Assembly: GCF_039519235.1 (NCBI RefSeq)
Contig: NZ_CP154351.1
Location: 248,001 to 312,000, forward strand
Source of the DNA: Micrococcus sp. 2A
Lineage (GTDB): Bacteria; Actinomycetota; Actinomycetes; Actinomycetales; Micrococcaceae
DNA length: 64,000 bases
Direction of reading: 5' to 3'
Below, piece by piece: positions 45,089 to 59,682 of the stretch (position 1 is its first letter; every line of letters begins with the position of its first letter). The notes under the pieces were generated by a model. It was given only the letters and a program-made list of their open reading frames with translations. It did no database searches and was not told the DNA's origin. Both the position numbers and the translations under genes were made by a program.

Positions 45089-45095
45089 CACCGTC

Positions 45096-45101
45096 ACACT
45101 A
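45096..45101 (-). promoter_or_regulatory. -10 box (TAGTGT) of leaderless NUDIX gene
   Basis: TAGTGT on the minus strand ends seven bases before GTG 45088. The opposite-strand TAGCGT at 45118-45123 probably serves etfB. Confidence 0.45.
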
Positions 45102-45212
45102 GTCAACCGGGGTTGTGTAGCGTGAGCCCTGCATGCCGTGCGCGCCACGAGCAGGGCCTCATCCCGCTCGGCGTCACGCGGCCCCGAGCGGAGATTCGAG
45201 GAGGAGTCACCC

Positions 45213-45995
45213 GTGAAGATCGTGGTGCTGGTCAAGCAGGTGCCGGACACGTGGCAGGAGCGTGAGCTGAGCCTGGAGACTGGTTGGGTGGTGCGCGACG
45301 GCGCGGCCGAGCCCGTGCCGGACGAGATCAGCGAGCGCGTCATGGAGGTCGCCCTGGGCTGGCGGGACGCCGGAGCTGACGTCGAGATCGTGGCCTTGAC
45401 GGTGGGCCCCGAGGACTCCTCGAAGACGCTGCGCAAGATGCTGGCCATGGGGGCGGACTCCGCCGTGCAGATCACCGACGACGCCCTCGTCGGCTCGGAC
45501 GCCGTGGAGACGGCCCGCGTGATCGCCGCGGCCGTCGAGAAGGAAGGCGCCGACCTCGTGCTCGCCGGCACGCTGTCCACGGACGGCGGCACCGGCGTGG
45601 TGCCGGCCATGGTCGCCGAGCTCCTGGACCGGCCCTACCTGCCGCATGCTGAGGCCCCCGAGTTGGTCGACGGCGAGCTGACCGGCACCGTGGCGACCTC
45701 GGACGCGGACGTGCGCGCCGCCGTCGCCCTGCCCGCCGTGGCGAGCCTGACGGAGAAGACCGCGGAGCCACGGTTCCCGAACTTCAAGAACATCATGGCG
45801 GCCAAGAAGAAGCCGCTCACCGTGCTGTCCCTGGCCGACCTCGGCATCGCCGCGGGCCCGGCCCAGGCCGCCTACCGCTCCGTGATGGTCTCGGCGGACA
45901 CGCGCCCCGAGCGTGCCGCGGGCGAGAAGATCACCGACGACGGCACCGCCGCCGAGCGGCTGGTGGAGTTCCTCGCGGGTCGGGGGCTCGTGTGA
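45213..45995 (+). CDS. etfB: Electron transfer flavoprotein subunit beta
   Basis: A 260-residue subunit that binds AMP and pairs with EtfA to carry electrons from acyl-CoA dehydrogenases to the quinone pool. [19 protein letters not shown] opens the protein; [20 protein letters not shown] and [18 protein letters not shown] are family marks. GTG 45213 has a strong GAGGAGGAG site. etfA follows with a short gap. Confidence 0.94.
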
Positions 45996-46018
45996 GCGCG
46001 AACGTGGAGGAGACCGAG

Positions 46019-47029
46019 ATGACGACGCAGACCGATGCCGCGAACAGCGGTCAGACCGTGCTGGTGCACGCCGAGATCGGCGCGGACGGCGCGCTCCGCC
46101 CGGTCGTGGCCGAGCTGCTCGGCGCCGCCGCCACCGTGGGCGTGCCCGAGGCCGTCCTCGTGACCGGCGCGGAGGGCAGGGACGCCGCCGTCGCCCGTCT
46201 GGGGGAGTACGGCGCCACACGCGTCCACGTCCTTGTGGCCGACGACGCCGCCACCACCCTGGGTGACGCGGCCGTGCAGGCCCTGACGGCCGTGACCGCC
46301 CGCACCGCGCCCGTGGCCGTGCTGCTCTCCGGCAGCCCGGAGTCCCGCGCGGTGGCCGGCCGTCTGTCCGTTCGGGCCCGCGGCCCCGTGTGCGCGGACG
46401 CCGTGGGGCTGCGGTGGGCCGACGATGAGGTCATCGCCCGCCACTCCGTGTTCGGCGGCGACTACCTCAGCGAGTCCACCGGCGAGGGCGGCCCCCGGAT
46501 CATCACCATGCGCCCCGGCGCCGTCGCGGACCGGGCCCCGGCCGTCGAGGCGCCCGAGGTCGTGGAGCTGGCCGCCGCCGAGCTGGGCCCGGTGACCGCC
46601 GGCGCCCGGGTGCTCGAGGTGAGCGCCCGGACGCAGAACTCCGCCCGCCCGCCCCTGCGCGGTGCGAAGACCGTCGTTGCCGGCGGCCGCGGTGTGGGAT
46701 CCGAGGAGGGCTTCGCGATCATCGAGCAGCTCGCCGACGAGCTCGGCGCCGCCGTGGGCGCCTCACGCGCCGCCGTGGACTCCGGCTACACCGCGGCCGA
46801 CCGCCAGGTGGGTCAGACCGGCGTGATCGTGTCCCCGAACCTGTACATCGCCCTGGGCATCTCCGGAGCCATCCAGCACCTGGCCGGCATGAAGACCGCC
46901 AAGACCATCGTGGCGATCGACAAGAACGAGGACGCCGAGATCTTCGAGCACGCCGACTTCGGTGTGGTCGGGGACATCTTCCAGGTGGTCCCGCAGGTCA
47001 TCGAGCAGCTGCGCACCCGCCGCGGCTGA
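46019..47029 (+). CDS. etfA: Electron transfer flavoprotein subunit alpha
   Basis: The FAD-binding subunit, 336 residues. The C-terminal domain shows [40 protein letters not shown] and [14 protein letters not shown], the FAD site. Start is ATG 46019 after GGAGGAG; GTG 45992 overlaps the etfB stop but lacks a ribosome site. It would serve the valine and fatty-acid pathways. A 12-bp hairpin separates it from the next gene. Confidence 0.94.
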
Positions 47030-47037
47030 ACCGGTGC

Positions 47038-47064
47038 GGGCGCGGTCCGCCTCGGACCGCGCCC
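47038..47064 (+). terminator. Hairpin between etfA and cytochrome-b-like gene
   Basis: Perfect 12-bp stem (47038-47049 with 47053-47064), 3-base loop, within a 52-base gap. It may lower rather than abolish read-through. Confidence 0.55.
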
Positions 47065-47081
47065 CTCGGACGAGGAGAAGC

Positions 47082-48824
47082 ATGCCCAAGCAGCGAATGG
47101 CCGGATACGTCCCCCTGAAGGGCGCCCCGACCGAGCCCGCCCCCGCCCTGGCGCAGGACACCACGACGGCGGCCCCGGCCCCGGTGGTGGCGCCCGCCGC
47201 ACCGGTGGCGCCGACCGCACCGGTGGCCGCGGCCGCCGCCCCGGTGGCGCCGACCGCACCGGCGTCGGCTCTGACCCCCCTGTCCACGCGACGCCGCATG
47301 GCCGGATACGTCCCGTTCGCCCGCGAGGCCGAGTGGCTCGGCGGGGCCCCCGCCCCGGCCGCCGGCTCGACCCCGGCCGCGGCTTCGGCGCGGCCTGCCG
47401 CCCCCGAGCCGATCGCCGCCTCGGCGTCTCCGACGCAGGCCCCCGCACCCGTGGTGACCGAGCCCGTCGTGCCGGACGTGGCGGCCGCCGTCGCCGCCTC
47501 CTCGTCCGGTGCGTCGGCCGCCGCCGGGGCTGGCACGCCCGTGGAGTCCGACCTCGTGCCACTCGCAGAGCGGCGGCGCATGGCCGGGTACGTGCCGTTC
47601 GCCCGGGAGGGGGAGTGGTTCACCGAGCTGGCCGCCGTGGGCGCCCCCACCGCGCCGGAGACGGTGGCGCAGGAGGTCGTCCCACCGGAGCCGGCCACCG
47701 CCGAGCCCGCCGCCGCGGCGCCGGCCCGGCCGGTCGTCGCCGAGCCGGCCGATGCGGAACCGGCCCTCGCCGCCCCCGTGGCCGCGGCGCCGGCCGCGGA
47801 GCCAACCCCCACCGCGCCGGACACCCGTTCGGCCCCGCCGGCCTCCGCCGCGCAGCCGCCCCGGGCCGCCCCCGGTGCCGCCCCCGGCACGCCCGCCCGC
47901 GCCGCTGACGCTGCCGCCCCGTCCCGTCTGCGCAAGGCGCTGCCGGCGGTGGCCGGCGTCGTGGTGCTGGCGCTGCTCGCGGTCCTGGCCGGGCGCTGGC
48001 TGCGGAGCCTGGACCCGGTGGCGGACTTCATCGCCGCCTACGACGGGCACCCCGTGCTGCCCGAGGGCACCCCCGAGGGGATGCCCTGGTGGATGGGCTG
48101 GCAGCACTTCCTGAACATGTTCCTGATGGTGCTGATCATCCGGACGGGCCTGCAGATCCGCCACGAGACGCGGCCTCCGGCCAACTTCACGCCGACGAAG
48201 GACGGCCTGTTCTCCGCACGGGGCAACACCCCGAAGAAGTTCTCGCTCACCATCTGGATGCACCAGGCACTCGACGCGCTGTGGCTGCTCAACGGCGCGA
48301 TCTTCGTGGTGCTGCTGATCGTCACCGGCCACTGGGCGCGGATCGTGCCCACGGACCCGCACGTGTTCCAGCACGCCCTGTCCGCCGGCATTCAGTACCT
48401 GTCCCTGGACTGGCCCACGGAGAACGGCTGGGTGCACTACAACGCGCTGCAGATGCTCTCCTACGCGCTGGTGGTGTTCGTGGCTGCCCCGCTCGCCGCC
48501 CTCACGGGCTGGCGCATGTCCTCGTGGTTCCCCACGGAGGCCAAGGGGCTGAACAAGGCGTTCCCCATGGAGGCGGCCCGCAAGGTGCACTTCCCGGTGA
48601 TGGTCTTCTTCGTGGCGTTCATCCTGGTGCACGTGTTCCTCGTGGCCTTCACGGGCCTGCTGACGAACCTGAACCACATGTACACCTCGCGCGGCGGGGC
48701 GACCGACGCGTGGGGCCTCGTGGTCTTCCTCGTGAGCGTGGCGGTCACCGCCGCCGCGTGGTTCTTCCTGAAGCCCGCCTTCACGGCCCCCGTGGCCTCC
48801 CGGTTCGGCACCGTGGGCCGCTGA
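47082..48824 (+). CDS. Cytochrome b561-like membrane protein with triplicated RMAGYVP motif
   Basis: A 580-residue protein, ATG 47082 after GAGGAGAAG. Residues 1 to about 285 are a Pro/Ala-rich, probably unfolded cytoplasmic tail with three copies of RMAGYVP: residues 5-11, 72-78 and 166-172. Copies 2 and 3 are extended to [13 protein letters not shown] followed by AEW or GEW. The membrane part has five or six spans with candidate haem histidines in [31 protein letters not shown] and [14 protein letters not shown]. It resembles the di-haem cytochrome b561/DUF4405 type. Position after etfBA suggests it may take part in electron transfer to quinone. The tail motif is not one I know. Confidence 0.7.
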
Positions 48825-48861
48825 GTCGTCGTGTGGTCCACCAGATGGTCGTGGCGAAGAA

Positions 48862-48895
48862 AATAGTTGCACGTCCGACTATTGCCCCTTAGTGT
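48862..48895 (+). promoter_or_regulatory. Promoter with MarR-like operator, cut off from its gene
   Basis: TTGCAC (48867-48872) and TAGTGT (48890-48895) are spaced by 17 bases. The inverted repeat AATAGT-N10-ACTATT (48862-48883) overlaps the -35 and spacer, the usual place for a MarR-type repressor. Downstream sequence runs only to 48943, where IS481 begins. The restored target is the MFS gene at 56983. Confidence 0.6.
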
Positions 48896-48943
48896 GATCC
48901 GGAACACAGCGACGTCGCCCGTCGCGGTGCCCCCGCACCCTAG

Positions 48944-50034
48944 GTGTACCCGGTCAGGACGTTGGTGGCACGAGGGAGCTTGAACAAAGGAGAACCTCCG
49001 GGTGGGATGTGGCTTGTCTAAGGCCCACATCACAAACCCAGAGGTTCTCATGTCCCACGGTAGCGCCCGCCTGACCGTTCACGGCCGTCGACTCATCGTC
49101 CAACGCCACCAAGCCGGATGGGCTCAAGCCCACATCGCCGCCGCGATGGGGGTCTCACGAAAATGCGTGAAGACCTGGATCGACCGGTACGCGTGCGAGG
49201 GCGATGCAGGCCTGGCCACGCGTTCCTCCCGCCCCCACACCAGCCCCACGAGATCTTCTGCAGCCACGGAGCAGGCGGTGCTCGCCGCTCGCGCCGAGCA
49301 CCGGTACGGGCAGGACCGTCTTGCCCCGCTCACCGGGGTTCCAGCACGCACGATCGGCAGGATCCTGCGTCGTCATCACGTGCCCCGCCTGGCCGCATGC
49401 GACCCGATCACCGGGGAGGTGATCCGTTCTTCGAAGACGACCACGCGCCGGTACGAACGAGACCGGCCCGGGGAACTGGTCCACGTGGACGTGAAGAAGC
49501 TGGGCAAGATCCCCGAGGGCGGGGGCTGGAGAGCACGAGGACGCGCGGCGACCGAGGCTGAGAAAGGCCGGCGCCCCAAGATCGGATACGACTACGTGCA
49601 CGCGATGGTCGATGACCATTCCCGCCTGGCCTACGCCGAGGTCCTGGCCGACGAGACCGGGCAGACGTGCGCGGGATTCCTGCAGCGGGCCGCGGCGTAC
49701 TTCGCCTCTCGGGGGATCACGAGGATCGAGCGTGTCATCACGGACAACGCGTTCGCGTATCGCCATAGTGCAGCGTTCCGGGCCGCGGTGGCCGGGCTCG
49801 GGGCCAGGCAGAAGTTCATCCGCCCGCACTGCCCGTGGCAGAACGGCAAGGTCGAGCGGTTCAACCGGACGCTGGCGATCGAGTGGGCCTACCGGCAGGT
49901 GTTCACCTCCAGTGCTCACCGACAGGACGCGCTTGCCCCGTGGTTGGAGTACTACAACACTGAGCGGGGTCACGCCGCGCTCGGAGGACACCCGCCCATG
50001 AACCGGGTGCCACCAACCTCATGACCGGGTACAC
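48944..50034 (+). mobile_element. IS481-family insertion sequence
   Basis: 1091 bp. The ends GTGTACCCGGTCA are inverted repeats of about 27 bp with two mismatches. CTAG flanks both sides (48940-48943 and 50035-50038), a 4-bp target duplication later split by the IS5 copy. One intact transposase gene. Confidence 0.88.
49050..50024 (+). CDS. IS481-family transposase
   Basis: A 324-residue transposase, apparently intact. The N-terminal helix-turn-helix is AQAHIAAAMGVSRKCVKTWI. The rve-type DDE core has the first Asp in ELVHVDVKKLG, the second in VITDNAFAY and the Glu in NGKVERFNRT. Start ATG 49050; the in-frame extension to 49002 overlaps the terminal repeat region. It ends ten bases before the right end of the element. 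Confidence 0.9.
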   Translation: MSHGSARLTVHGRRLIVQRHQAGWAQAHIAAAMGVSRKCVKTWIDRYACEGDAGLATRSSRPHTSPTRSSAATEQAVLAARAEHRYGQDRLAPLTGVPARTIGRILRRHHVPRLAACDPITGEVIRSSKTTTRRYERDRPGELVHVDVKKLGKIPEGGGWRARGRAATEAEKGRRPKIGYDYVHAMVDDHSRLAYAEVLADETGQTCAGFLQRAAAYFASRGITRIERVITDNAFAYRHSAAFRAAVAGLGARQKFIRPHCPWQNGKVERFNRTLAIEWAYRQVFTSSAHRQDALAPWLEYYNTERGHAALGGHPPMNRVPPTS

Positions 50035-50418
50035 CTAGGGCGTGTCTGACAATGCCTTCGACCACGCGAGCACAGCATTCAGGACCACAGCGGCCCTGTA
50101 GATGATCGCGTACTTGTCATACCGGGTCGCCAGACCCCGCCACTGCTTCAGGTGAGCGTACTGACGCTCGATGACGTTGCGGCCCTTGTAGGCGTCCGCG
50201 TCGAGGCCGACGGGGCGCCCGCCGCGGGCACCGCGCCGTCTGCGGTGGCCCTGCTGGTCGGCTGGTTCGGGGATGACCGCTTTGATCCCACGGGCGCGTA
50301 GGTGGGTGCGGATCGCCCGGGAGGAGTACGCCTTGTCGCCCAGCACGGCCTCGGGGCGGGTCCGGGGCCGCCCTACTGGCCGGGTCACGCGCAGCTGCTC
50401 CAAAAGAGGAAGCAGCAT
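50035..50418 (-). CDS. IS5-family transposase orfB (copy 1)
   Basis: C-terminal part of the DDE transposase: VLGDKAYSSRAIRTHLRARG holds the second Asp region and NVIERQYAHLKQWRGLATRY the Glu. The frame continues upstream of ATG 50418 to about 50572 without a start, so the real product is a fusion with orfA by slippage at a GGGGG run. The stop codon TAG lies in the CTAG target, outside the element ends. Confidence 0.85.
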   Translation of the reverse strand: MLLPLLEQLRVTRPVGRPRTRPEAVLGDKAYSSRAIRTHLRARGIKAVIPEPADQQGHRRRRGARGGRPVGLDADAYKGRNVIERQYAHLKQWRGLATRYDKYAIIYRAAVVLNAVLAWSKALSDTP

Positions 50419-50976
50419 CGGGGAGTCCCCTGCCTGGCCGGGGGTGATCAGGCTGACCAGCGGCAGCCCGGTCCCATCGACGAGCTGATGGATCTTCGTG
50501 CTCAGCCCGCCACGGGAGCGCCCGATGCCGTGATCGGCCGGCTCCTCACGCGGATTCTTGTAGTTCGATCCATCCCCCTGTGTGGCGGGTGATGTTCGTC
50601 GCGTGCTGGTGGGCGCGGGCGATCGTGGAGTCCACCGAGACCGACCAATCGATCAGGCCTTCGGCGTCAGCGGCGGCGGTCAGCGTGGCCAGCACCGTGT
50701 CCCAGGTGCCTTTTTCGGCCAAGCGCCGATGCCAGGTCCACACGGTCTGCCAGGGCCCGTAGACCTCGGGCAGATCCCTCCAAGCGATTCCGCACCGGTA
50801 CCGGTAGATGATCGCCTCCACCATGGTGCGGGCGTCGGCGAACGGCCTGCCGGCGCGGCCGGTCCGGGTCGGGAGCATCGGGGCGATCAACTCCCATTGG
50901 GTGTCAGAGAGCATCTGGAACCGGGACATGTCCCCAGGGTCTCAGCTGACTCGTGCATCTATTCTCAGACACGCCC
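50038..50976 (-). mobile_element. IS5-family (IS427-like) element, copy 1
   Basis: 939 bp with inverted ends GGGCGTGTCTGA. TA at 50036-50037 and 50977-50978 is the duplicated target within CTAG. It carries two overlapping frames joined by frameshift. It sits in the right-hand CTAG of the IS481 target duplication. Confidence 0.88.
50546..50929 (-). CDS. IS5-family transposase orfA (copy 1)
   Basis: 127 residues: MLSDTQWELIAPMLPTRTGR, then the DUF4096-type domain YRCGIAWRDLPEVYGPWQTV, and the first catalytic Asp in WSVSVDSTIARAHQHA. The ribosome must shift at GGGGG near 50572 to continue into orfB as QGDGSNYKNPREEP. Confidence 0.87.
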   Translation of the reverse strand: MSRFQMLSDTQWELIAPMLPTRTGRAGRPFADARTMVEAIIYRYRCGIAWRDLPEVYGPWQTVWTWHRRLAEKGTWDTVLATLTAAADAEGLIDWSVSVDSTIARAHQHATNITRHTGGWIELQESA

Positions 50977-51042
50977 TAGTTGCGCGGACCTCCTGGGATC
51001 GGGCCATGGTGCCGGCCGCTTGCCGGGCGGCACCCCGACAAG

Positions 51043-51062
51043 GGTACACGTTATGCTGTACC
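51043..51062 (+). promoter_or_regulatory. Operator of the CmtR-like regulator
   Basis: Perfect inverted repeat GGTACA-N8-TGTACC, covering a -10-like TATGCT at 51053-51058 and lying ten bases before the regulator start. Position fits autorepression. Confidence 0.6.
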
Positions 51063-51071
51063 GTTCTAGGC

Positions 51072-51404
51072 ATGAGCACCACGACCCTCACTCATGTCTC
51101 GGCGTTGTCCCGACTGGGCCATGCCCTCTCTGATGACACCCGGACCCGGATCCTGCTGGCCCTGCGTGATGGGCCGGCCCGCCCGTCGGCGCTGGCCGGG
51201 GAGCTGGGGGTGTCCAAGCAGGTGATGTCCAACCAGTTGGCCTGCCTGCGCGGCTGCGGGCTGGTGACCACTACCGCCGAGGGCCGCAACGTCTGGTACG
51301 CCCTGGCCGACCCCCGGCTGGGCCAGACCCTTGGGGAGCTGCTGGAGTTGACGCTGACCATCGACCCGGATTGCTGCTCCGCTGCGGGATGCACCTGCGC
51401 ATGA
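51072..51404 (+). CDS. cmtR: ArsR/SmtB-family metal sensor, CmtR-like
   Basis: A 110-residue repressor. LAGELGVSKQVMSNQLACLR is the winged helix, and C58 and C62 (LACLRGCGLV) match the cadmium/lead-binding cysteines C57 and C61 of mycobacterial CmtR. The C-terminal DPDCCSAAGCTCA supplies further thiols. It should release DNA on binding Cd(II) or Pb(II). It overlaps the first CDF exporter gene by four bases (ATGA), and a palindrome at 51043-51062 is its likely site. Confidence 0.85.
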   Translation: MSTTTLTHVSALSRLGHALSDDTRTRILLALRDGPARPSALAGELGVSKQVMSNQLACLRGCGLVTTTAEGRNVWYALADPRLGQTLGELLELTLTIDPDCCSAAGCTCA

Positions 51405-52147
51405 GCACCCTCACGCTGAGCTCCAAGCCCCTCACGGACGACCGCCGTGCGGTCCTGCACCGCCGGATCCGCTGGATCGTGGCCGGAACCATCACCTACA
51501 ACGTGATCGAGGCGGCCATCGCCCTGGCCGCCGGCACCGTGGCCTCGTCCTCCGCGTTGATCGGCTTCGGCTTGGACTCCATCGTGGAGGTCCTCTCCGC
51601 CGCCGCGGTGGCCTGGCAGTTCGCCACCCCGGACCCGCACCGCCGGGAGAAGGTGGCGCTGCGCCTGATCGCCTTCTCCTTCTTCGGCTTGGCCGCCTTC
51701 ATCACCGTCGACGCCGTGCGCACCCTGTTCGGGGCCGGGCAACCGGAGCATTCCACGGTGGGGATCGTGCTGGCCGCCGTGAGCTTGGCCATCATGCCGT
51801 TCGTGTCCTGGTTCGAGCGGCGCACTGGCCGCGAACTCGGGTCCGCCTCCGCGGTGGCCGACTCCAAACAGACCCTGATCTGCACCTACCTCTCGGCGGT
51901 CCTGCTGGTGGGCCTGGTCCTCAACAGCACCCTGGGCTGGACCTGGGCCGACCCAGTCGCGGCCCTGGTGATCGCCGCCGTCGCCCTCAAGGAAGGGGTG
52001 GAGGCCTGGCGCGGGGATGCCTGCTGCACCCCCGCCTCCGCGCTGATCGCCGGGGACCAGAACGAGAAGGACGGCGATGGCTGCGGGGCGGATTGCGCCT
52101 GCTGTGCGCATTCAGCGTGCCTTCAGTATCGCCGGACAGGATGGTGA
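51401..52147 (+). CDS. CDF-family metal exporter with cysteine-rich tail
   Basis: A 248-residue cation-diffusion facilitator with six spans. GTITYNVIEAAIALAAGTVA, SSALIGFGLDSIVEVLSAAA and WADPVAALVIAAVALKEGVE are typical, with metal-site Asp residues at both positions. The tail DGCGADCACCAHSACLQ is rich in cysteine and could bind Cd or Pb. It lacks the usual C-terminal cytoplasmic dimer domain. Start ATG 51401 overlaps the cmtR-like stop. Confidence 0.83.
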   Translation: MSTLTLSSKPLTDDRRAVLHRRIRWIVAGTITYNVIEAAIALAAGTVASSSALIGFGLDSIVEVLSAAAVAWQFATPDPHRREKVALRLIAFSFFGLAAFITVDAVRTLFGAGQPEHSTVGIVLAAVSLAIMPFVSWFERRTGRELGSASAVADSKQTLICTYLSAVLLVGLVLNSTLGWTWADPVAALVIAAVALKEGVEAWRGDACCTPASALIAGDQNEKDGDGCGADCACCAHSACLQYRRTGW

Positions 52148-52186
52148 CGTTCAGCTGATGATTCATCGAGTGGAAGAGACCCTGGT

Positions 52187-53104
52187 ATGAGCGGACACGA
52201 TCATTCCCATGCTCTTCCGGCGGCGGGCCGGCGGGGCCGGCTGGCCGTGGTCTTCTCCATCACCGCGACGATCATGGTCGCCGAGGTCATCGGCGCGCTG
52301 GCTTCGGGCAGTCTGGCCCTGCTGGCCGACGCCGGGCACATGTTTACTGACTCAGCCGGGTTGCTGATCGCCCTGACCGCCACGACCCTGGCGCTGCGCC
52401 CGGCCACGGACAAGCGCACCTGGGGGTACAAGCGCGCCGAGATCATCGCCGCGGCCGCGCAGGCCGCGGTGCTGCTGGCCGTGGGCGGCTTCGTAGCCGT
52501 GGAGGGCGTACGCCGGCTCATCGAACCCCCCGAGGTCGAATCCACCGCGATGCTCTGGTTCGGGGTGATCGGTTTGGCTGGCAACCTCATCGGTCTGGCG
52601 ATCCTGGCCTCTTCCCGAGGTGAGAACCTGAACATGAAGGCCGCGTTCCTGGAGGTACTCAACGACGCCCTGGGATCGGTCGCAGTGATCGTTTCGGCGA
52701 TCGTGATCGCCACCACCGGCTGGAATCGCGCCGATGCGGTGGTGTCCCTGTTGATCGCCGCACTGATCGTGCCCAGAGCCCTGATCCTGCTTCGCGACAC
52801 CATCGACGTACTCATGGAGACCACCCCCAAGGGCTTGGACCTGGAGGCGGTCCGCATCCGGCTATCGGAGCTGCCGCACGTGCTGGAGGTCCATGACCTG
52901 CACGCTTCACGCATCGACTCCGACACCCCCGTGCTCTCCGCGCACGTCACCGTGCACAACGGCTGCCTGACCGCCGCGCACCTGGGCACTGTGCTGACCG
53001 ACCTGCAACGGTGCGTGGCCCAGGATTTCCAAGTACCCATCGAACACTCCACCTTCCAAATCGAACCGGCCACCCACCCCCACACTGAGACCCTCCACCC
53101 CTGA
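52187..53104 (+). CDS. CDF-family zinc/cadmium exporter, CzcD/ZitB-like
   Basis: A 305-residue exporter. A short His-rich start (SGHDHSHA) is followed by six spans. The metal site is HMFTDSAGL and EVLNDALGS (first HxxxD, second NxxxD), and the cytoplasmic domain carries LPHVLEVHDLHASRIDSDTP. It removes Zn(II), Cd(II) or Co(II) by proton exchange. It follows the first CDF gene by 39 bases and is of the longer, classical type. Confidence 0.9.
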   Translation: MSGHDHSHALPAAGRRGRLAVVFSITATIMVAEVIGALASGSLALLADAGHMFTDSAGLLIALTATTLALRPATDKRTWGYKRAEIIAAAAQAAVLLAVGGFVAVEGVRRLIEPPEVESTAMLWFGVIGLAGNLIGLAILASSRGENLNMKAAFLEVLNDALGSVAVIVSAIVIATTGWNRADAVVSLLIAALIVPRALILLRDTIDVLMETTPKGLDLEAVRIRLSELPHVLEVHDLHASRIDSDTPVLSAHVTVHNGCLTAAHLGTVLTDLQRCVAQDFQVPIEHSTFQIEPATHPHTETLHP

Positions 53105-53184
53105 CCCACCCCTGCATCCCAGCCCCAGCTCATTCCCACCCCGACGGCACGGTGCCGTCGCCACCGACCGAAACGGATCCCTTC

Positions 53185-53937
53185 GTGAGCACACCGACCC
53201 GCAATCCGACCCCCTCTGATCCGTCAACACCGGGCACCACATCCCGCAAGGCCAAGACCATCGTCTGGGTCGTACTGGCCGCTGTGGTGCTGGCCGGGCT
53301 GATCGTCGGAGTGGTGGCCGCCAGCGGCCCCCGCGACGCCGCCCCCCAGGGCTCCGGGCAAACTGCCTCCTCCGAGACCGGGCAGAGCGCCCCCTCGGAG
53401 GCCACGCCGGTGATGCGCCCAGACAGCCGGGTACTGTCCAAGGCCCCGAACGAGCAGGCCGTGCTGGTGGAGTTCCTGGACTTCGAGTGCGAGGGCTGCA
53501 AGGCCGCCTACCCGGTCGTGGAAGAACTGCGCGCCGAGTACGCCGACACGGTGACCTTTGTGCACCGCTACTTCCCGCTGCCCGGACATCCCAACTCGAT
53601 GACCGCCGCCGTAGCCGTGGAAGCCGCCGGCCAGCAGGGACAGTACGAGGCGATGTATCAGCAGATGTTCGACACCCAGGAGCAGTGGAGCCATACCACT
53701 GAGGACCGGAGCCCGGTGTTCCGCGGTTACGCCGAGGATCTCGGCCTGGACATGGCCGCCTACGATGCCGCGGTGGCTGACCCGGCCACCCGCGACCGCA
53801 TCGAGGCCGACGTGGCCGACGGGACCGCGCTGGGCGTGCAGGGCACCCCGACCTTCTTCCTGGACGGACAGATGCTCACTCTGAACACCCTCGAGCAGTT
53901 CCGCGCCGAGGTCGACGCCGCCGCCACGACGGACTGA
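53185..53937 (+). CDS. Membrane-anchored DsbA-like thiol oxidoreductase
   Basis: A 250-residue protein from GTG 53185 (GTG 53152 is an alternative; neither has a strong ribosome site). One N-terminal span (TIVWVVLAAVVLAGLIVGVV) anchors a thioredoxin-fold domain outside the membrane. The active site is C102-E-G-C105 (FLDFECEGCKAAYPVV), with cis-proline in GVQGTPTFFL. It forms disulfide bonds and is probably reoxidised by the VKOR protein encoded next. Confidence 0.87.
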   Translation: MSTPTRNPTPSDPSTPGTTSRKAKTIVWVVLAAVVLAGLIVGVVAASGPRDAAPQGSGQTASSETGQSAPSEATPVMRPDSRVLSKAPNEQAVLVEFLDFECEGCKAAYPVVEELRAEYADTVTFVHRYFPLPGHPNSMTAAVAVEAAGQQGQYEAMYQQMFDTQEQWSHTTEDRSPVFRGYAEDLGLDMAAYDAAVADPATRDRIEADVADGTALGVQGTPTFFLDGQMLTLNTLEQFRAEVDAAATTD

Positions 53938-53945
53938 CCGGGCCC

Positions 53946-54629
53946 ATGAGTGTCCCCGACACCGACACCAATTCACCCGTGACGATCCCCACGACCACCA
54001 CCGACCGCCCTGCCGGTACCGGGCAGGCCTCCGACGTAGCGGGGATACCGACTGTCGCCCGGCACCGTCCGTTCGGCCTGGTGCTGTTGATCACCGGGGT
54101 GGTCGGCTGGGTGGCCTCGGCGATCCTGGTGCTCGAACGCCTGGAGCTGTACGAGGATGCCGGGTACATCACCAGCTGTGACATCAACCCCTGGGTGTCT
54201 TGCGGGAAGGTGATGGGGACCTGGCAGTCCGAGCTGTTCGGCTTCCCCAACCCGTTGATCGGCATCGTGGCGTTCGCCGTGGTCATCACCACCGCCATGG
54301 TGACCCTCTCCGGGGCGAGCCCCGGGCGCTGGTACTGGGCCGGCCTGCAGGCCGGGGTCACCGCCGGCACGGTGTTCACCATCTGGCTGTGGTCCCAGGC
54401 GTTGTTCGAGATCCACATCCTGTGCCTGTACTGCATGATCGTGTGGGCGGCGATGATCCCGCTGTTCATCCTGCTCACCGTGCGCAACCTCGCCCACGGC
54501 GTGATCCCCGCGCACGCCGCGGTGGTGCGGTTCTCCGCCGGCTGGGCCGGAACCCTGGTGGCCATCGCCTATGTGGCCGTGGCCGCCTCGGTGTTCTGGA
54601 CCTTCTTCCCGGCCCTCACCGGTTACTGA
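53946..54629 (+). CDS. Vitamin K epoxide reductase-family protein (VKOR)
   Basis: A 227-residue membrane protein. The CxxC site is C160-L-Y-C163 (EIHILCLYCMIVWAAM); the loop cysteines are C78 and C86 (SCDINPWVSCGKVM). It passes electrons from the DsbA-like partner to quinone, replacing DsbB in actinobacteria. It follows the DsbA-like gene by eight bases. Extra-cytoplasmic disulfide formation may protect cells under metal stress, hence its place in this cargo. Confidence 0.9.
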   Translation: MSVPDTDTNSPVTIPTTTTDRPAGTGQASDVAGIPTVARHRPFGLVLLITGVVGWVASAILVLERLELYEDAGYITSCDINPWVSCGKVMGTWQSELFGFPNPLIGIVAFAVVITTAMVTLSGASPGRWYWAGLQAGVTAGTVFTIWLWSQALFEIHILCLYCMIVWAAMIPLFILLTVRNLAHGVIPAHAAVVRFSAGWAGTLVAIAYVAVAASVFWTFFPALTGY

Positions 54630-54684
54630 CACACCAGCCGCACTACGGCCCGCCCACGCGCCCGCAACGAGGAGAAACCACACC

Positions 54685-54771
54685 ATGGCCGAGACCGACG
54701 TGCTAGTGATCGGCGCCCGCCAAGCAGGGCTGGCGCTCGGGCACTACCTGAGGCGTGAGGAGCCGAGCTGT
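54685..54771 (+). pseudogene. 5' stub of FAD-dependent oxidoreductase
   Basis: A good ribosome site (GAGGAGAAA) and ATG 54685 open MAETDVLVIGARQAGLALGH, the FAD-binding start of CzcO/ArsO-type monooxygenases, with R where the second Gly of GxGxxG is expected. Similarity stops after about 28 residues. The body of the gene (over 300 residues) is gone. Confidence 0.65.
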
Positions 54772-55126
54772 CGGCAAAGCCGGACACAGGTTGGGAAACC
54801 GAGAAGGGCAGGCAGTAGGTTCCTTGTCCAACAGGCCCTCTACCGCCACGTCGCGACAACCGGGCAGCTCCGTGAGGATGGAGGCAAGGTCCTCGCCCGG
54901 AAAGGAAGTACATGATCGGCTGGCTGGAGCGGTGGCAGATTCCCTTGTACCTGGTTGCCCTGGGAGCCGGTGCCGCTTGCGGAAGCGGCATAACCGAACC
55001 GACACCGTGTCCACGATCAAGGGCCAAGGCCCCACTCCTACTCCGGCCTCATCTGACCCCGCTCCGGCACCACCACCGCGGCCGAAGTCGCCGACGTTTG
55101 ATCGCCTCGATGAAGGGAAATTCGCT
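54772..55126 (+). other. Deletion scar with no intact gene
   Basis: About 355 bases between the FAD stub and the CtaG-like gene. It holds the 5' stub described at 54912 and otherwise no frame that I can place in a family. Composition is less GC-biased than the chromosome. Confidence 0.5.
54912..54986 (+). pseudogene. 5' stub of bile-acid:Na+ symporter/arsenite efflux-like gene
   Basis: AAAGGAAGTAC precedes ATG 54912 and MIGWLERWQIPLYLVALGAG, the opening of the arsenic-type bile acid:sodium symporter family. The match ends after about 24 residues, then the frame becomes Pro/Arg-rich shadow of the next gene. It appears to be a second broken cargo gene. Confidence 0.5.
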
Positions 55127-56029
55127 ATGCCGCCGATCGACCAGTGGGTCACGTTCGAACCCCTCACCGGCTCACCCGTCGGCATCGCCGCTCTGCTGTT
55201 CGCGGCACTGTATCTGCGAGGAGCGATCTGGATGTGGCGAAACAGGCGCCGTTGGGCGATCGCCCGCACAGCATCGTTCCTGATCGGGTGCGCCCTGATC
55301 TTCGCTATCACGATGTTCGGTGTGAACCGTCTCGCGACGGAATCCATCACAGCGCTGGTGTTCCAGCAGATCACCCTGCTGACCGTCGTTCCGCCGCTCC
55401 TCATCGCAGGGTCACCCGGGCTGCTGCTCCTGCGCAGCACACCGCACACCGGCCTCGGGCGTCTCGTGCTCCGTGCCGCGCACGGGGGACTGCGCTCACG
55501 ATTCTGGAGCGCCGCACTGCACCCTGTGGTCGCCATCGTCATTGCGATACTGCTGTACCCGGTCCTCTACCTGACCGACGCGATCAGCGTCATCATGCGC
55601 ATCCCCTTCGGCCAGGACGCCTTGCTCTTCGTCATCCTCGTCCTCGGCATCGTCTCGGCAACACCGCTATGGTCCTCCGATCCGCTACCGCGCCAACCCT
55701 CCTTCGCCGCACGATTCGTCGATATCGCCGTCGAGATCCAGATCCACGCCATTTTCGGCCTGATCCTGCTCCGTACCGCCACACCGCTGTTCAGCGCATA
55801 CGCCACCCCCACAGGCAGCCATGACCCCGTCATCGACCAGGCGATCGCCGGCACGCTGGTATGGACCTACGCGGAGCTGCCGATGTTCGTAGTGCTCATC
55901 GTCTGCCTGTCCCGCTGGCGAGCCCGCGACGTGCGCACCTCGAGACAGCGACAGAAAGCCGAGGACGCCGAACTCGACTCTTACAACGAGTACCTCGCCA
56001 GCCTCTCCCGAAGACGGAACGAGAGCTAG
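55127..56029 (+). CDS. Cytochrome c oxidase assembly protein, CtaG (caa3) type
   Basis: A 300-residue membrane protein with seven spans: VGIAALLFAALYLRGAIWMW, FLIGCALIFAITMFGVNRLA, QQITLLTVVPPLLIAGSPGL and LHPVVAIVIAILLYPVLYLT among them. It fits the CtaG_caa3 family linked to copper insertion into oxidases and often found with copper genes. ATG 55127 has AAGGGA eight bases upstream; an earlier in-frame GTG is possible. Its TAG stop lies in the CTAG used as target by the second IS5 copy. Confidence 0.78.
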   Translation: MPPIDQWVTFEPLTGSPVGIAALLFAALYLRGAIWMWRNRRRWAIARTASFLIGCALIFAITMFGVNRLATESITALVFQQITLLTVVPPLLIAGSPGLLLLRSTPHTGLGRLVLRAAHGGLRSRFWSAALHPVVAIVIAILLYPVLYLTDAISVIMRIPFGQDALLFVILVLGIVSATPLWSSDPLPRQPSFAARFVDIAVEIQIHAIFGLILLRTATPLFSAYATPTGSHDPVIDQAIAGTLVWTYAELPMFVVLIVCLSRWRARDVRTSRQRQKAEDAELDSYNEYLASLSRRRNES

Positions 56030-56409
56030 GGCATGTCTGACAATCGTTTGGACCACGCGAGCACAGCGTTCAACACCACGGCGGCCCGGTAGACGATCGC
56101 GTACTTGTCGTACCGGGTCGCCAGGCCCCGCCATTGCTTCAGGTGCGCGTACTGGCGCTCGATCACGTTCCGGCCCTTGTAAGCCTGCGAGTCCAGGCCC
56201 ACGGGACGGCCACCGGCCGAGCCGCGGCGCCTGCGGTGGCCCTGCTGATCCGCCGGCTCGGGGATCACGGCTTTGATCCGGCGGGCACGCAGGTGGGTGC
56301 GGATCGCCCGGGAGGAGTACGCCTTGTCGCCCAGCACCGCCTCGGGGCGGGTCCGGGGCCGCCCTACCGGCCGTGCCACGCGCAGCCGCCCCAGCAGCGG
56401 CAGCAGCAT
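56026..56409 (-). CDS. IS5-family transposase orfB (copy 2)
   Basis: Same layout as copy 1 but with several substitutions: GRLRVARP for EQLRVTRP, RGSAGGRP for RGARGGRP, LDSQAYKG for LDADAYKG and KRLSDMP for KALSDTP. DKAYSSRAIR and NVIERQYAHLKQW are kept. The stop TAG is supplied by the CTAG target. Confidence 0.85.
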   Translation of the reverse strand: MLLPLLGRLRVARPVGRPRTRPEAVLGDKAYSSRAIRTHLRARRIKAVIPEPADQQGHRRRRGSAGGRPVGLDSQAYKGRNVIERQYAHLKQWRGLATRYDKYAIVYRAAVVLNAVLAWSKRLSDMP

Positions 56410-56969
56410 CGGGGAGTCCCCGGCTTGGCCGGGGGTGATCAGGCTGACCAGCGGCAGCCCGGTCCCATCGACGAGCTGATGGATCTTCGTGCTCAGCCCG
56501 CCACGGGAGCGCCCGATGCCGTGATCGGCCGGCTCCTCACGCGGATTCTTGTAGTTCGATCCATCCCCCTGTGTGGCGGGTGATGTTCGTCGCGTGCTGA
56601 TGCGCGCGGGCGATCGTGGAGTCCACCGAGACCGACCAATCGATCAGGCCTTCGGCGTCAGCGGCGGCGGTCAGCGTGGCCAGCACCGTGTCCCAGGTGC
56701 CTTCTTCAGCCAAGCGCCGATGCCAGGTCCACACGGTCTGCCAGGGCCCGTAGACCTCGGGCAGATCCCTCCAAGCGATTCCGCACCTGTATCGGTAGAT
56801 GATCGCCTCCACCATGGTGCGGGCGTCGGCGAACGGCCTGCCGGCGCGGCCGGTCCGGGTCGGGAGCATCGGGGCGATCAACTCCCATTGGGCATCGGAG
56901 AGCATCTGGAAGCGGGACATGCCTTCCAGGGTGTCAGCTGGCCCCCTGGATCCATTCTCAGACACGCCC
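56029..56969 (-). mobile_element. IS5-family (IS427-like) element, copy 2
   Basis: 941 bp, same orientation as copy 1. Left end GGGCATGTCTGA, right end GGGCGTGTCTGA (inverted), TA duplicated at 56027-56028 and 56970-56971. With copy 1 it brackets the metal cargo like a composite transposon. Confidence 0.88.
56537..56920 (-). CDS. IS5-family transposase orfA (copy 2)
   Basis: 127 residues from ATG 56920, nearly identical to copy 1 (A for T in LSDAQWEL, E for K in RRLAEEGTW). A longer frame from 56965 runs into the element end and is not the likely start. Continues into orfB by slippage at GGGGG. Confidence 0.87.
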   Translation of the reverse strand: MSRFQMLSDAQWELIAPMLPTRTGRAGRPFADARTMVEAIIYRYRCGIAWRDLPEVYGPWQTVWTWHRRLAEEGTWDTVLATLTAAADAEGLIDWSVSVDSTIARAHQHATNITRHTGGWIELQESA

Positions 56970-56982
56970 TAGGAGCGTCCCC

Positions 56983-58374
56983 ATGGCCGAGTCTCTCGCC
57001 CCGCCCGCGGCCCCCGTCGCCGAAGCCCCCGTCACCCCCGTCCAGCGCCGCCGAGCGTTCGTCGGCGCCATCGCTGGCCACCTCATCGAGTGGTACGACT
57101 ACGGCGTCTACGGCTTCCTCGCCGTCTACGTGGCCGCCAACTTCTTCAAGAGTGAGGACCCAACGGTCGGCATCCTGGCCGCCTTCGCCGTCTTCGCGCT
57201 CAGCTTCTTCGTCCGTCCGCTCGGCGGCCTGTTCTTCGGGCCCCTCGCGGACCGGATCGGCCGCCGCAAGACCCTCATGCTCGTGCTCGGGCTGATGTGC
57301 AGCGCCACGGCCGTGATCGGCATGCTGCCCACCTACGCGACCATCGGCGTCGCGGCCCCGGCCCTGCTCATGCGCCTGGTCCAGGGCTTCTCCGCCGGCG
57401 GCGAGGTGTCCACCATCTCGGCGTTCGTGGCCGAGTACGCCGTCAAGGGCCGGCGCGGCTTCGCGACCTCCTTCCTCATGGTCACCGCCGCCGTGGGCCT
57501 GCTGCTGGGCGGCGTCGTCGCCAACGGCCTGGGCGCGATCATCGGCACCGAGGCCATGGCCGCGTGGGGCTGGCGCCTGCCGTTCCTGCTGGCCGGCGTG
57601 CTGGGCGCGGTGGCGGTGTTCATCCGCATGAAGCTCGAGGACAGCCCTGAGTTCCAGCGCCTGCACACCGAGGGCCGCACCTCGAAGGCCCCGCTGCGCG
57701 AGACCCTGCGTCACCAGCGGCAGCTCTTCCTCATGGGCGCGGTCATCACACTGCTGGGTTCCACGTTCTACCTCGTGCTGACCTACCTGACCACCTACAT
57801 GAAGACCATCCTGGAGGTCGAGCCGGGCGCCATCTTCTGGCTGGTCCTGCTGACGGGCGTCACCGCCGCGGCGTTCATGCCGGTCGGCGGCGCGATCTCG
57901 GACCGCATGGGCGACCGCCGCCCCATGCTCGCGATCGGCGCCCTGCTGGTCTCCGGCGCCGTGGTCTGGTTCTTCCTCACCGCGCCCGGCACAGAGGGCT
58001 CCCTGCCCCTCGTCCCCTCGCTGCTGGCCCTCGGCGTCACCACCGGCCTGTACTGCGGCATCCCGTACGCCACCATGACCGAGCTCATGCCGGCCCACGT
58101 CCGCTCCACCGGCGTCGCCCTGGGATACAACGTGCCGGTGGCCCTCTTCGGCGGCTCGGCCCCGTTCATCGCCACCTGGCTGATCAAGCAGACCGGAGAC
58201 GTCGCCTCCCCGATGTACTTCTTCCTCGCCACCGCGGCCGTGTCCCTGCTCGGCGTGGCGATGCTGCGCCCGGCCGACCTGCTCGGCCACGAGGACGTAC
58301 CGGTGACCGGCTCGCTGGACGCGGTGGGCGCCCCCGTGCGCCCGGTACTTTCGAACGTGACTTCGGGGGAATGA
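56983..58374 (+). CDS. MFS transporter, metabolite:H+ symporter (MHS) type
   Basis: A 463-residue carrier with twelve spans. GHLIEWYDYGVYGFLAVYVA and LADRIGRRKTLML are the MHS signatures; RLVQGFSAGGEVSTISAFVA and the ISDRMGDRRPML loop are also typical. Relatives carry dicarboxylates, alpha-ketoglutarate, proline or shikimate. ATG 56983 follows AGGAG at 56971-56975, whose first A belongs to the IS5 target duplication. Only 13 bases separate it from the IS5 end, so its native promoter is no longer adjacent. Confidence 0.88.
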   Translation: MAESLAPPAAPVAEAPVTPVQRRRAFVGAIAGHLIEWYDYGVYGFLAVYVAANFFKSEDPTVGILAAFAVFALSFFVRPLGGLFFGPLADRIGRRKTLMLVLGLMCSATAVIGMLPTYATIGVAAPALLMRLVQGFSAGGEVSTISAFVAEYAVKGRRGFATSFLMVTAAVGLLLGGVVANGLGAIIGTEAMAAWGWRLPFLLAGVLGAVAVFIRMKLEDSPEFQRLHTEGRTSKAPLRETLRHQRQLFLMGAVITLLGSTFYLVLTYLTTYMKTILEVEPGAIFWLVLLTGVTAAAFMPVGGAISDRMGDRRPMLAIGALLVSGAVVWFFLTAPGTEGSLPLVPSLLALGVTTGLYCGIPYATMTELMPAHVRSTGVALGYNVPVALFGGSAPFIATWLIKQTGDVASPMYFFLATAAVSLLGVAMLRPADLLGHEDVPVTGSLDAVGAPVRPVLSNVTSGE

Positions 58375-58421
58375 GCGCTTTCGAACGTGAGATAGGCCCT
58401 ATCTCACGTTCGAAAGCGCTC
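58373..58421. terminator. 24-bp perfect palindrome overlapping the MFS stop codon
   Basis: Arms 58373-58396 and 58398-58421 are exact complements with a single central base. The left arm shares two bases with the TGA stop at 58372-58374. The unit TTTCGAACGTGA within it also occurs at 58349-58360. It ends both the MFS gene and the convergent thioesterase gene. Confidence 0.7.
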
Positions 58422-58435
58422 GGGCGTGCGGGGCG

Positions 58436-59383
58436 TCAGCCCCGGGCCGCGCGGAAGGTGACCTGCACCTGGACCATCGGCTTGTCCGCCACGGGGCCGC
58501 CGTCGGCGCCGACCGGCACGAGGTCCACGTCCACGAGGCGCAACGACCGGCCGGCGTGCCGCACCCGCGTGAGGGCGACCATCTCGCCGTGGCCCGGGCG
58601 GACGAACACCACGCGCACGCCCTGGACGTCGTAGCGCTCGCGGTCCGGCATGGCCGCCTGCGCGGCCGTGACCGCCCGCAGGGTCATGGCCCCGCCGTGC
58701 ACCGCACCGGAGGGGTTGGCCAGTTCGGGCTTGGGGGCGAAGCGGGCGCCCGGGGTCGCCGCGGCGGCGACCCCGGGGCGCACGTCCCGCTCGGCCGGAG
58801 CCAACGACGCCGGGCGGGCGGCCAGCAGCACCGGCAAGGGCACGCGGGTCTCGGCTCCGCGGGGCAGCCGTCCGGCCGCAACGAACTCGGCCATCCGCTC
58901 CGGTGCTCCGGCGGGCACCGACTGGAACCAGCCGGTCGCCTCGACCACGCGCCGTCCGTCGGCGTCCTCGAGCCAGGCCCGGGCCACGCCACCCCCCGCA
59001 TCCCAGCTCAGCGGGCGGGTCCAGCACTCCAGCAGCGGGCCGTCGTCGTCCCCGGCCGTGACGGCCGCGGCGTCGAAGGCGGGCAGCGGGCCGAGCACGT
59101 TGACCTGCAGCTCGGTGGTGACCACGGCCTCGATGTCCCGGGCCGCGTGGTGCACGGCCACCGCGGTGGCGTTGTCCATGATCACGGTGGCCGCCGCGCC
59201 AGTGGGCCGCCCGTCCAGGTCGAGGCACCAGGGTCCGACCTCGAACGCTGCCGGGTTGAGGGCGCCGTCCCGCGCGCTCATCATGGCATGACGACGGATG
59301 CCGAACAGCTGCTCCGCGCGTCCGGAGGCGTGGGAGCGGGGGCCGGTGGGCGAGTCCGCGGTGGGGCTGGTGGTGGTCTGCAC
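58436..59383 (-). CDS. Double-hotdog acyl-CoA thioesterase-like protein
   Basis: A 315-residue protein with two hotdog domains. The first has PAAFEVGPWCLDLDGRPTGA and NATAVAVHHAARD; the second has KPELANPSGAVHGGAMTLRA (the HGG PaaI-type active loop) and VRVVFVRPGHGEMVALTRV. It should hydrolyse acyl-CoA thioesters. GTG 59383 lies seven bases after TAGCGT, so probably leaderless; the frame upstream to 59461 is not conserved. Confidence 0.77.
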   Translation of the reverse strand: MQTTTSPTADSPTGPRSHASGRAEQLFGIRRHAMMSARDGALNPAAFEVGPWCLDLDGRPTGAAATVIMDNATAVAVHHAARDIEAVVTTELQVNVLGPLPAFDAAAVTAGDDDGPLLECWTRPLSWDAGGGVARAWLEDADGRRVVEATGWFQSVPAGAPERMAEFVAAGRLPRGAETRVPLPVLLAARPASLAPAERDVRPGVAAAATPGARFAPKPELANPSGAVHGGAMTLRAVTAAQAAMPDRERYDVQGVRVVFVRPGHGEMVALTRVRHAGRSLRLVDVDLVPVGADGGPVADKPMVQVQVTFRAARG

Positions 59384-59390
59384 GGGCAGA

Positions 59391-59396
59391 ACGCTA
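59391..59396 (-). promoter_or_regulatory. -10 box (TAGCGT) of leaderless thioesterase gene
   Basis: TAGCGT on the minus strand ends seven bases before GTG 59383. Confidence 0.45.
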
Positions 59397-59458
59397 GCCC
59401 ACGGCCCGGCGGTGACACGGCAGATCATTGGATGTCCTATTATCGTGGTGACGACAGT

Positions 59459-59682
59459 CACACCATGACCCGGACACCGTGCGCCTGTGCGCCATGGCCA
59501 AGCTCGTGGCCACCGAGTCCGGCTACGAGGCCGCCGACACCGCCCTGCAGCTGCACGGCGGCTACGGCTACCTGCACGAGTACGGCGTGGAGAAGCTCGT
59601 CCGGGACCTGCGTGTGCACCGGATCCTCGAGGGCTCGAACGAGATCATGCGCCTGATCGTGGGCCGCGGCCTGATCGGCTGA
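59459..59682 (+). pseudogene. 3' remnant of acyl-CoA dehydrogenase
   Basis: About 70 residues of the C-terminal helical domain remain: MAKLVATESGYEAADTALQL, HGGYGYLHEYGVEKLVRDLR and RILEGSNEIMRLIVGRGLIG. Intact members are about 380-400 residues, so more than 80% of the gene is missing, including the catalytic Glu region. The reading continues upstream of ATG 59479 into DTVRLC. It is convergent with the valine operon and might be what is left of an isobutyryl-CoA dehydrogenase. Confidence 0.85.

Follow-up and report, generated by a model that had tools for sequence, protein, structure and literature searches.

How an MFS transporter gene of Micrococcus sp. 2A came to be separated from the promoter region found ahead of it in relatives, and whether one insertion or several were involved, is the question raised by this locus. 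In the window (the whole stretch of 64,000 nucleotides that was analysed), 8.03 kb of inserted DNA (48944-56972) lie between the two. The locus is a clean, checkable case of a resistance-type unit parked in the chromosome at a site that the elements make reusable; the host gene has been severed from its predicted promoter, yet its coding sequence and ribosome site are intact.

Junctions and empty sites

The original prediction had the IS481 element starting directly after the CTAG at 48940-48943 and the second IS5 copy (IS5b) ending at 56969. Both junctions were borne out: the element end reads GTGTACCCGGTCA, and on the right the duplicated TA (56970-56971) lies within a CTAG at 56969-56972 that joins IS5b to host sequence. 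The ribosome site of the MFS gene begins inside the TA duplication as described (AGGAG, 56971-56975), but stands 7 bases from the ATG at 56983 and not eight. A further CTAG, at 50035-50038, is common to the right end of the IS481 element and the left end of the first IS5 copy (IS5a); this site and the right junction were read directly from the sequence.

Relatives were sampled as one genome per species, with the addition of G008, which belongs to the same species as the window. The proposed alignment of the flanks with island-free relatives was carried out, and in both G008 and G002 the flanks are joined through one junction CTAG. In G008 (locus L098), window positions 44000-48944 and 56967-59467 map to adjoining stretches at 97.0% and 97.4% identity, respectively, with a 7-base overlap around the CTAG. 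The empty site reads CACCCTAGGAGCGTCCCCCATG in G008 and CACCCTAGGAGCGTCACCTTG in G002. Because the flanks are contiguous in these two genomes, the MFS gene of the window has been cut off from its promoter region by the inserted DNA. The expected adjacency of promoter flank and MFS gene thus holds in G008 and G002, whereas five of 10 relatives have no MFS gene closer than about 1.5 kb to the left-flank gene.

The IS481 element, the IS5 copies and the cargo

The IS481-family element (48944-50034, + strand) contains a transposase ORF running from 49002 or 49050 to 50024 that matched the profile NF033577 at 305.1 bits (cut-off 224), and its terminal inverted repeat measures 34 nt (94%, CTAG counted in). 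Three near-identical full-length copies are present in the genome, all with CTAG on both sides. A CTAG or NCTAGN target has been described for this family (PMC6794481, PMC2516522, PMC3053399). IS481 of Bordetella, ISLxc2 and TnRErm46 of Rhodococcus equi resemble the window element in transposase family and in having CTAG at both ends; TnRErm46 has cargo of its own, whereas the window element has none and only adjoins the IS5-flanked cargo unit.

The two IS5-family copies, IS5a (50038-50976) and IS5b (56029-56969), are both on the - strand and share 91.9% identity. Their transposase is split over two ORFs (50546-50929 and 50035-50418 in IS5a, both on the - strand); the N-terminal ORF of IS5a scored 113.5 bits against NF033580 (IS5; cut-off 110), and the C-terminal ORF alone fell below at 81.1 bits. 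CTAG-type targets are on record for IS5 of E. coli (PMC11894529). G002 carries an IS5-cargo-IS5 unit without IS481 at another site, 98.7% identical over 6937 bp; the target letters are CTAG...CTAG around the window copies and C-TA...TA-A around the G002 unit. As in an IS5-family composite transposon, the cargo lies between two IS5 copies of the same orientation and the unit recurs at a different site in a second species. The window departs from such a composite in that its two copies represent two subtypes, while those of G002 are one and the same hybrid.

The cargo (50980-56025, + strand) comprises 5046 bp, of which 5041 are identical in G002, and parts of it occur in G003 and G004. All of its genes lie on the + strand. 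An ArsR/SmtB-family metalloregulator (51072-51404; NF033788, 69.6 bits, cut-off 55) is CmtR-like, although below threshold for that profile (NF047906, 110.4 bits, cut-off 150). It is followed by a cation efflux (CDF-type) protein (51371-52147; PF01545, 57.6 bits, cut-off 26.6), which scored 52.3 bits against TIGR01297, under the cut-off of 82.35, and by a ZitB/CzcD-like CDF cation transporter (52187-53104) that exceeded the same cut-off at 241.7 bits. The remaining genes encode a DsbA/thioredoxin-like protein (53152-53937; PF13462, PF01323), a VKOR-family protein (53946-54629; PF07884) and a CtaG-like membrane protein (54755-56029, ORF start uncertain; PF09678, 155.8 bits, residues 151-389). 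The 5' remnant of a transporter gene (54912-54982) has an uninterrupted counterpart in G004, which gave a weak ACR3-like match far below cut-off. A 60-bp stretch (54974-55033) is a probable IS30-type element end, as 59 of its bases recur in G004 (L101) downstream of an IS30-family transposase ORF. In plasmid records, part of this stretch carries the annotation of an IS3 family transposase. When the cargo was compared with plasmids by megablast, 21 records matched, none of them with a single location covering more than 80% of the query. The Kocuria rosea plasmid NZ_CP126484 carries an actinobacterial cluster of metal-resistance type, with annotated genes for an ArsR-type regulator, a CDF transporter, a thioredoxin-domain protein, VKOR and a CtaG-type protein, as in the cargo, but aligns at 84.1% identity over 38% of the query.

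Two elements at one CTAG

Ancestrally, the locus very probably had the order promoter, one CTAG, ribosome site and MFS gene, and two separate CTAG-targeting elements later nested there. The IS481 element would have inserted with duplication of the CTAG and the IS5-flanked metal-resistance unit with duplication of the TA within it. Each insertion leaves CTAG on both sides, one of which could then have been the target of the second element. The order of the two events is unreadable, since entry of IS481 first or of the IS5 unit first gives identical final letters. The presence of an IS481 copy and an IS5-flanked unit at the same four-letter site is mostly ordinary mobile-DNA behaviour.

According to the original prediction the whole 8-kb island had entered a single CTAG. 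Entry at one CTAG and the separation of promoter region from MFS gene stand; a single entering unit is not supported. One insertion would account for the lone CTAG at the empty junction and for the outer CTAG at either end of the block, yet the outer ends of the block come from two different IS families, the IS5 unit is found without IS481 in G002, and IS481 is found without the IS5 unit elsewhere in the window genome. A second IS481-CTAG-IS5 junction occurs in G003, where the IS5 lies in the reverse orientation; the two elements are thus not inherited as a fixed pair. With the two parts occurring separately and the G003 junction reversed, entry of the block as one mobile unit was rejected as very improbable. 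Both elements might conceivably have arrived in one event, for instance through homologous recombination with DNA of a different strain. Among one genome per species and G008, no relative was found to have just one of the two elements, IS481 or the IS5 unit, at the CTAG of the window, and stepwise entry was therefore not seen directly.

Both IS5 copies of G002 are hybrids that match the cargo-facing halves of IS5b (left) and IS5a (right). In each copy, 56 of 56 discriminating sites on the left match IS5b and 17 of 20 on the right match IS5a, and the two copies differ from each other at one position. The right half shows 6-8 differences from several IS5a-type copies and 7 from IS5a, to which it is not specifically closest; since these distances are similar, the donor need not have been the window strain. 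Alignment of 26 IS5 copies (16 of 20 fetched regions were usable; L217-L220 were omitted because no full element could be delimited) revealed subtypes elsewhere in the genus that match IS5a and IS5b almost throughout. The hybrid nature is more likely to lie on the G002 side than in the window copies, and the pattern looks as if a circle of cargo and one IS5 had moved between species. In IS26, cargo circularised with a single IS copy inserts while the IS is duplicated. The hybrid pair of G002 is the expected result of such a translocatable unit, although the transposase here is of the IS5 and not the IS6 family and the circle is a putative intermediate.

A circle of this kind might also have delivered the IS5 unit to the window, by homologous recombination with a resident IS5 beside IS481. 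The limited identity of IS5a and IS5b, each matched in its cargo-facing half by the G002 hybrids, would agree with this, and a resident IS5 adjoining IS481 exists in G003. Arrival in this manner is nevertheless unlikely: IS5a and IS5b each have similar subtypes in other members of the genus and do not need recombination to explain them, and none of the 26 aligned copies has the required composition throughout, with one (own2340k) fitting over part of its length. Given these subtypes, the interpretation of the window copies as recombinants with a resident copy was dropped.

Among 87 end sites in six near-complete Micrococcus genomes, 11 have a CTAG that serves both an IS481-type and an IS5-type end, against 1-3 expected from a crude random-site simulation. 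Assuming 200, 410 or 600 CTAG sites per genome, the simulated means were 2.96, 1.39 and 1.10, and the largest shared counts in 200 runs were 10, 4 and 4, respectively. The count used 98 of 131 end matches, and insertions at CTAA went uncounted because the end patterns include CTAG; the 33 omitted matches were in draft genomes or a small contig (G003:C2, G004, G006, G008, G010), and no shared pairs were seen among them by eye. G007 accounts for five of the 11 shared sites, some of which may stem from the copying of a single event. We tentatively propose that in CTAG-poor Micrococcus the IS481 and IS5 families may serve as mutual landing pads, with the CTAG renewed at both ends and unrelated elements stacking end to end, and that the metal-resistance cargo may travel between species as a circle containing a single hybrid IS5; this would be a cycle of translocatable units in a family other than IS6/IS26. 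Should both the sharing of CTAG and the hybrid-IS5 pattern be borne out in a broader range of strains, they would suggest a route by which IS clusters and islands of metal resistance expand in actinobacteria of high G+C content.

The MFS gene, its promoter region and putative regulators

The uninterrupted MFS gene (56983-58374, + strand) encodes a protein of MHS (metabolite:H+ symporter) type, which matched PF07690 and scored 370.7 bits against TIGR00883, below the cut-off of 443.45. Its counterpart in G008 is 98% identical. Outside Micrococcus, a sole match (52%) was obtained among 120 family genomes at E 1e-100, and further loci gave 50-58% identity; because these relatives are too distant, the promoter comparison could not be extended beyond the genus. 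The core promoter predicted originally, TTGCAC and TAGTGT separated by 17 bases, is present on the + strand at 48867-48895 (48867-48872 and 48890-48895). In the alignment with G008, G009 and G002, TAGTGT is kept in all three and TTGCAC in two, G002 having TTTGAT instead. Where the island is missing, this putative promoter precedes the MFS gene; in the window it precedes IS481.

MFS expression had been thought to depend on read-through from IS5. The transposase ORFs of IS5b run on the - strand and point away from the MFS gene, which rules out transposase read-through; the only read-through that could reach the gene is from the metal genes of the cargo on the + strand. The native promoter would now fire into IS481, leaving the MFS gene with a ribosome site and without a promoter. 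The MFS gene is probably either weakly expressed through cargo read-through across the antisense IS5b, or silent. Alternatively, the gene may have been rewired and its expression kept, by a new promoter at the right end of IS5b or by read-through from the cargo, which we consider possible though doubtful. The intact ribosome site and the shared strand of cargo and MFS gene would suit such rewiring, and fusion promoters at IS ends have been documented (PMC11894529), but the IS5b transposase points the opposite way. Scans of 54600-57100 reported no terminator-like site, an absence that would favour rewiring, and no promoter-like site, an absence that would count against it; these scans decide nothing, because the consensus promoter scan did not report the conserved native promoter at 48867-48895 either.

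An inverted repeat over the promoter, proposed as a MarR-type operator, does exist (AATAGT-N10-ACTATT, 48862-48883, with arms at 48862-48867 and 48878-48883), but its arms are conserved in none of the three alignable relatives (G008, G009, G002). Within the surrounding 119-bp stretch there are two inverted repeats with perfect 6-bp arms and a spacer of 4-16, this one and GCGACG-N5-CGTCGC. At least one such repeat occurred in 22.2% and at least two in 7.7% of 5000 shuffles of the stretch; among 537 window tiles the corresponding numbers were 241 and 133. For its lack of conservation and near-chance frequency, the repeat was rejected as a MarR operator. That the lost control was exerted by a MarR-type repressor at this repeat is accordingly most improbable, even though in G006 the MFS gene is directly preceded by a divergent MarR-type gene and a MarR homologue lies near the locus in the window genome, about 7.3 kb past the end of the MFS gene; MarR homologues are also present in G003, G004, G005 and G007, all of which have no MFS gene at the locus.

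A palindrome over the -10 box, TGTGATCCGGAACACA (48893-48908), is conserved in the form TGTGA-N6-ACACA/TCAC. The CRP/GlxR-type consensus is TGTGA-N6-TCACA, and from this resemblance we take the palindrome to be CRP/GlxR-like. Matches of 8-9 of the 10 letters were found in all six sequences scanned (the window, G008, G009, G002, G006 and G010), in stretches of 111-221 bp that are longer than the 110-bp control tiles; six of 580 such tiles from the window scored at least 8 letters, one of which (start 48840) contains the site itself. Two matches to cNMP-binding domains are present in the window genome. G008, G002 and G009 carry an extra CTAG within the -10 box, where the window reads TTAG, and in G008 and G002 the junction CTAG is consequently not the sole nearby target.

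Insertion site and island-free relatives

The island at 48944-56972 is a well-documented fresh example of mobile-DNA behaviour already known, with two modest extensions beyond that behaviour which are worth testing. The original prediction, that the island separates a promoter from the MFS transporter gene (56983-58374, + strand), was borne out by empty sites in two other Micrococcus genomes, G008 and G002, in which the flanks are joined through one junction CTAG, CACCCTAGGAGCGTC. In the window, CACCCTAG closes the left flank and CTAGGAGCGTCCCCATG opens the right one. Matches in G008 to window positions 44000-48944 (97.0%) and 56967-59467 (97.4% identity) are contiguous. The sequence features on which the prediction drew were all found in place, save that AGGAG and ATG are 7 bases apart, not 8.

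Comparison was made with 10 other Micrococcus genomes (11 counting the window's own). The left-flank gene, whose product contains a cytochrome b561-type domain, was matched in all 10 and is followed by the MFS gene in five (G008, G002, G009, G010 and G006), with a MarR-type gene lying between the two in G006. In G005, G001, G003, G004 and G007, the approximately 1.5 kb downstream of the left-flank gene yielded no MFS match, and elsewhere in these genomes the MFS DNA was matched weakly at best; a thioesterase-type gene resembling the one at window positions 58436-59461 directly follows the left-flank gene in G005. At the -10 box, G008, G002 and G009 carry a second CTAG, whereas the window reads TTAG (48889-48892) and therefore lacks this second possible target for IS481 or IS5 elements. 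CTAG was absent from the stretches of G010 and G006 that were examined.

Relative to G008 and G002, approximately 1 kb is missing from the window at 59464-59467; in G008 this stretch holds an uninterrupted ORF that by eye appears acyl-CoA dehydrogenase-like. A perfect 24-bp inverted repeat with a 1-nt loop (58373-58421) is situated at the MFS stop codon, and related sequence occurs in the corresponding gap of G005, where there is no MFS gene.

Composition of the island

The left 1.1 kb of the island is an IS481-family element (48944-50034, + strand), represented in the window genome by three full-length, near-identical copies with CTAG on both sides of each. The remainder consists of a cargo (50980-56025) flanked by two IS5 copies on the - strand, IS5a (50038-50976) and IS5b (56029-56969). 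G002 carries IS5-cargo-IS5 without IS481 at a different place, with 98.7% identity over 6937 bp, differences at 5 of 5046 cargo positions and flanks of C-TA on the left and TA-A on the right. Parts of the cargo also occur in other surroundings in G003 and G004 (99.8-99.9% identity over 3957 and 2855 bp). Since IS481 and IS5-cargo-IS5 are also found apart, the block comprises two pieces, and the proposal that the whole 8 kb entered as one unit was discarded. IS481 may have inserted into the host CTAG first, with its right-hand CTAG then receiving the IS5 unit; alternatively, the IS5 unit may have come first, with IS481 entering the left-hand CTAG. Both orders would yield identical letters, so the order of insertion is unreadable from the sequence. 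At a G003 locus (C1:2082000-2100000, L095), approximately 2.9 kb splits the cargo between positions 54936 and 54974 of the window, and an inverted copy resembling IS5b is located approximately 970 bp from the cargo's other end.

IS5a and IS5b differ at 76 positions. Both IS5 copies of G002, which differ from one another at a single position, agree with IS5b at all 56 positions on the left and with IS5a at 17 of the 20 on the right; the halves kept in this way lie, in the window, on the cargo side of each copy. IS5 copies following IS5a or IS5b nearly throughout are found in other genomes, e.g. G7_1917k and G7_2367k. Crossing-over between the flanking copies would produce a circle of cargo plus one hybrid IS5, which could then insert with its IS5 being copied; the G002 pattern would fit the expected product of this route. 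Gene conversion would also account for the hybrids, as would a tandem duplication with subsequent transposition. The donor need not have been the window strain, because the right half of the hybrid shows no particular closeness to IS5a (7 differences, as against 6-8 to several IS5a-type copies).

By gene family the cargo looks like a heavy-metal resistance cluster, encoding an ArsR/SmtB-type regulator (CmtR-like, under the cut-off of the CmtR model), two cation-efflux proteins, a DsbA/thioredoxin-type protein, a VKOR-type protein, a truncated transporter remnant and a CtaG-type membrane protein. A Kocuria rosea plasmid has a similar gene set. The transporter gene is cut at approximately 54982, in 54912-55033, beside a 60-bp stretch that is probably from an IS30-type end. 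Its counterpart in G004 (L101) is uninterrupted; there, the 60-bp stretch follows an IS30-family transposase ORF and directly adjoins cargo position 52128.

Sharing of CTAG sites by insertion sequences

IS481-family elements, including actinobacterial examples, are described as targeting CTAG/NCTAGN (PMC6794481, PMC2516522, PMC3053399), and the reported target of E. coli IS5 is C(A/T)A(G/A), with CTAG (PMC11894529). In a genomic survey of M. luteus published in 2026, IS5 and IS481 are listed with the most abundant transposase families, and IS481 function is reported not to have been studied there in detail (PMC13189705). A search of titles and abstract openings, with subscription journals mostly outside its reach, returned no mention of the island, of CTAG sharing between IS481 and IS5, or of an IS5-family translocatable unit.

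The window contains 15 CTAGs, where base composition would predict 159 and trinucleotides 39, and the IS junctions of the island account for 5 of the 15. The genus was searched for the ends of the IS5 type, the window's IS481 and a second IS481-family element that adjoins IS481 in G003. From 131 end matches, 98 in six near-complete genomes were used; these fell at 87 CTAG sites, 11 of them shared by two elements, compared with simulated means of 1.1-3.0 and a largest single run of 10 under a crude model. G003 possesses a second IS481-CTAG-IS5 junction with IS5 in the orientation opposite to the window's, and this pairing thus arose independently.

Elsewhere in the window genome, two tandem IS5 copies have one CTAG in common (L097 10183-10207; C1:2340182-2340207), the left copy being a fragment of approximately 410 bp. 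A second IS-rich region (L096, C1:712000-728000) contains, by eye, two opposed IS5 copies around a resolvase-like ORF and others, and two of its ORFs resemble the second IS481-family transposase.

The MFS gene and its native promoter

By its position, the native promoter (TTGCAC-17-TAGTGT, 48867-48895) is now directed into IS481, whose transposase gene lies about 100-150 bp farther downstream in the same orientation. The MFS gene retains both an uninterrupted ORF and its own ribosome site. The IS5b transposase ORFs occupy the opposite strand and read away from the MFS gene, so read-through would be possible only from + strand cargo across antisense IS5b. Consensus scans of 54600-57100 found neither promoter nor terminator; the scans also miss the conserved native promoter and therefore decide nothing.

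When the joined window flank was aligned with G008, G009 and G002, the -10 box TAGTGT was conserved in all three relatives and TTGCAC in two, G002 having TTTGAT. The MarR operator that had been proposed, AATAGT-N10-ACTATT (48862-48883), did not withstand this comparison: its arms are conserved in none of the three, and repeats of this kind are frequent. Two occur in the 119-bp stretch; of 5000 shuffled versions, 22.2% had at least one and 7.7% at least two, the corresponding counts among 537 window tiles being 241 and 133. A TGTGA-N6-ACACA/TCAC palindrome over the -10 box is conserved: each of the six sequences that have the MFS gene downstream (window, G008, G009, G002, G006 and G010) agrees with the consensus at 8-9 of 10 letters. 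At least 8 letters were reached in 6 of 580 window tiles, one being the tile that holds the site itself, the six test sequences being longer than the tiles. The palindrome is a candidate site resembling those of CRP/GlxR, and the window genome yielded two cNMP-binding domain matches.

In G006 the MarR-type gene and the MFS gene are divergent. The window genome has the MarR-type homologue (C1:313695-314195) outside the window, approximately 7.3 kb past the end of the MFS gene; homologues with E values of 1e-20 or better were found in 9 of the 11 genomes, four of which have no MFS gene at the locus.
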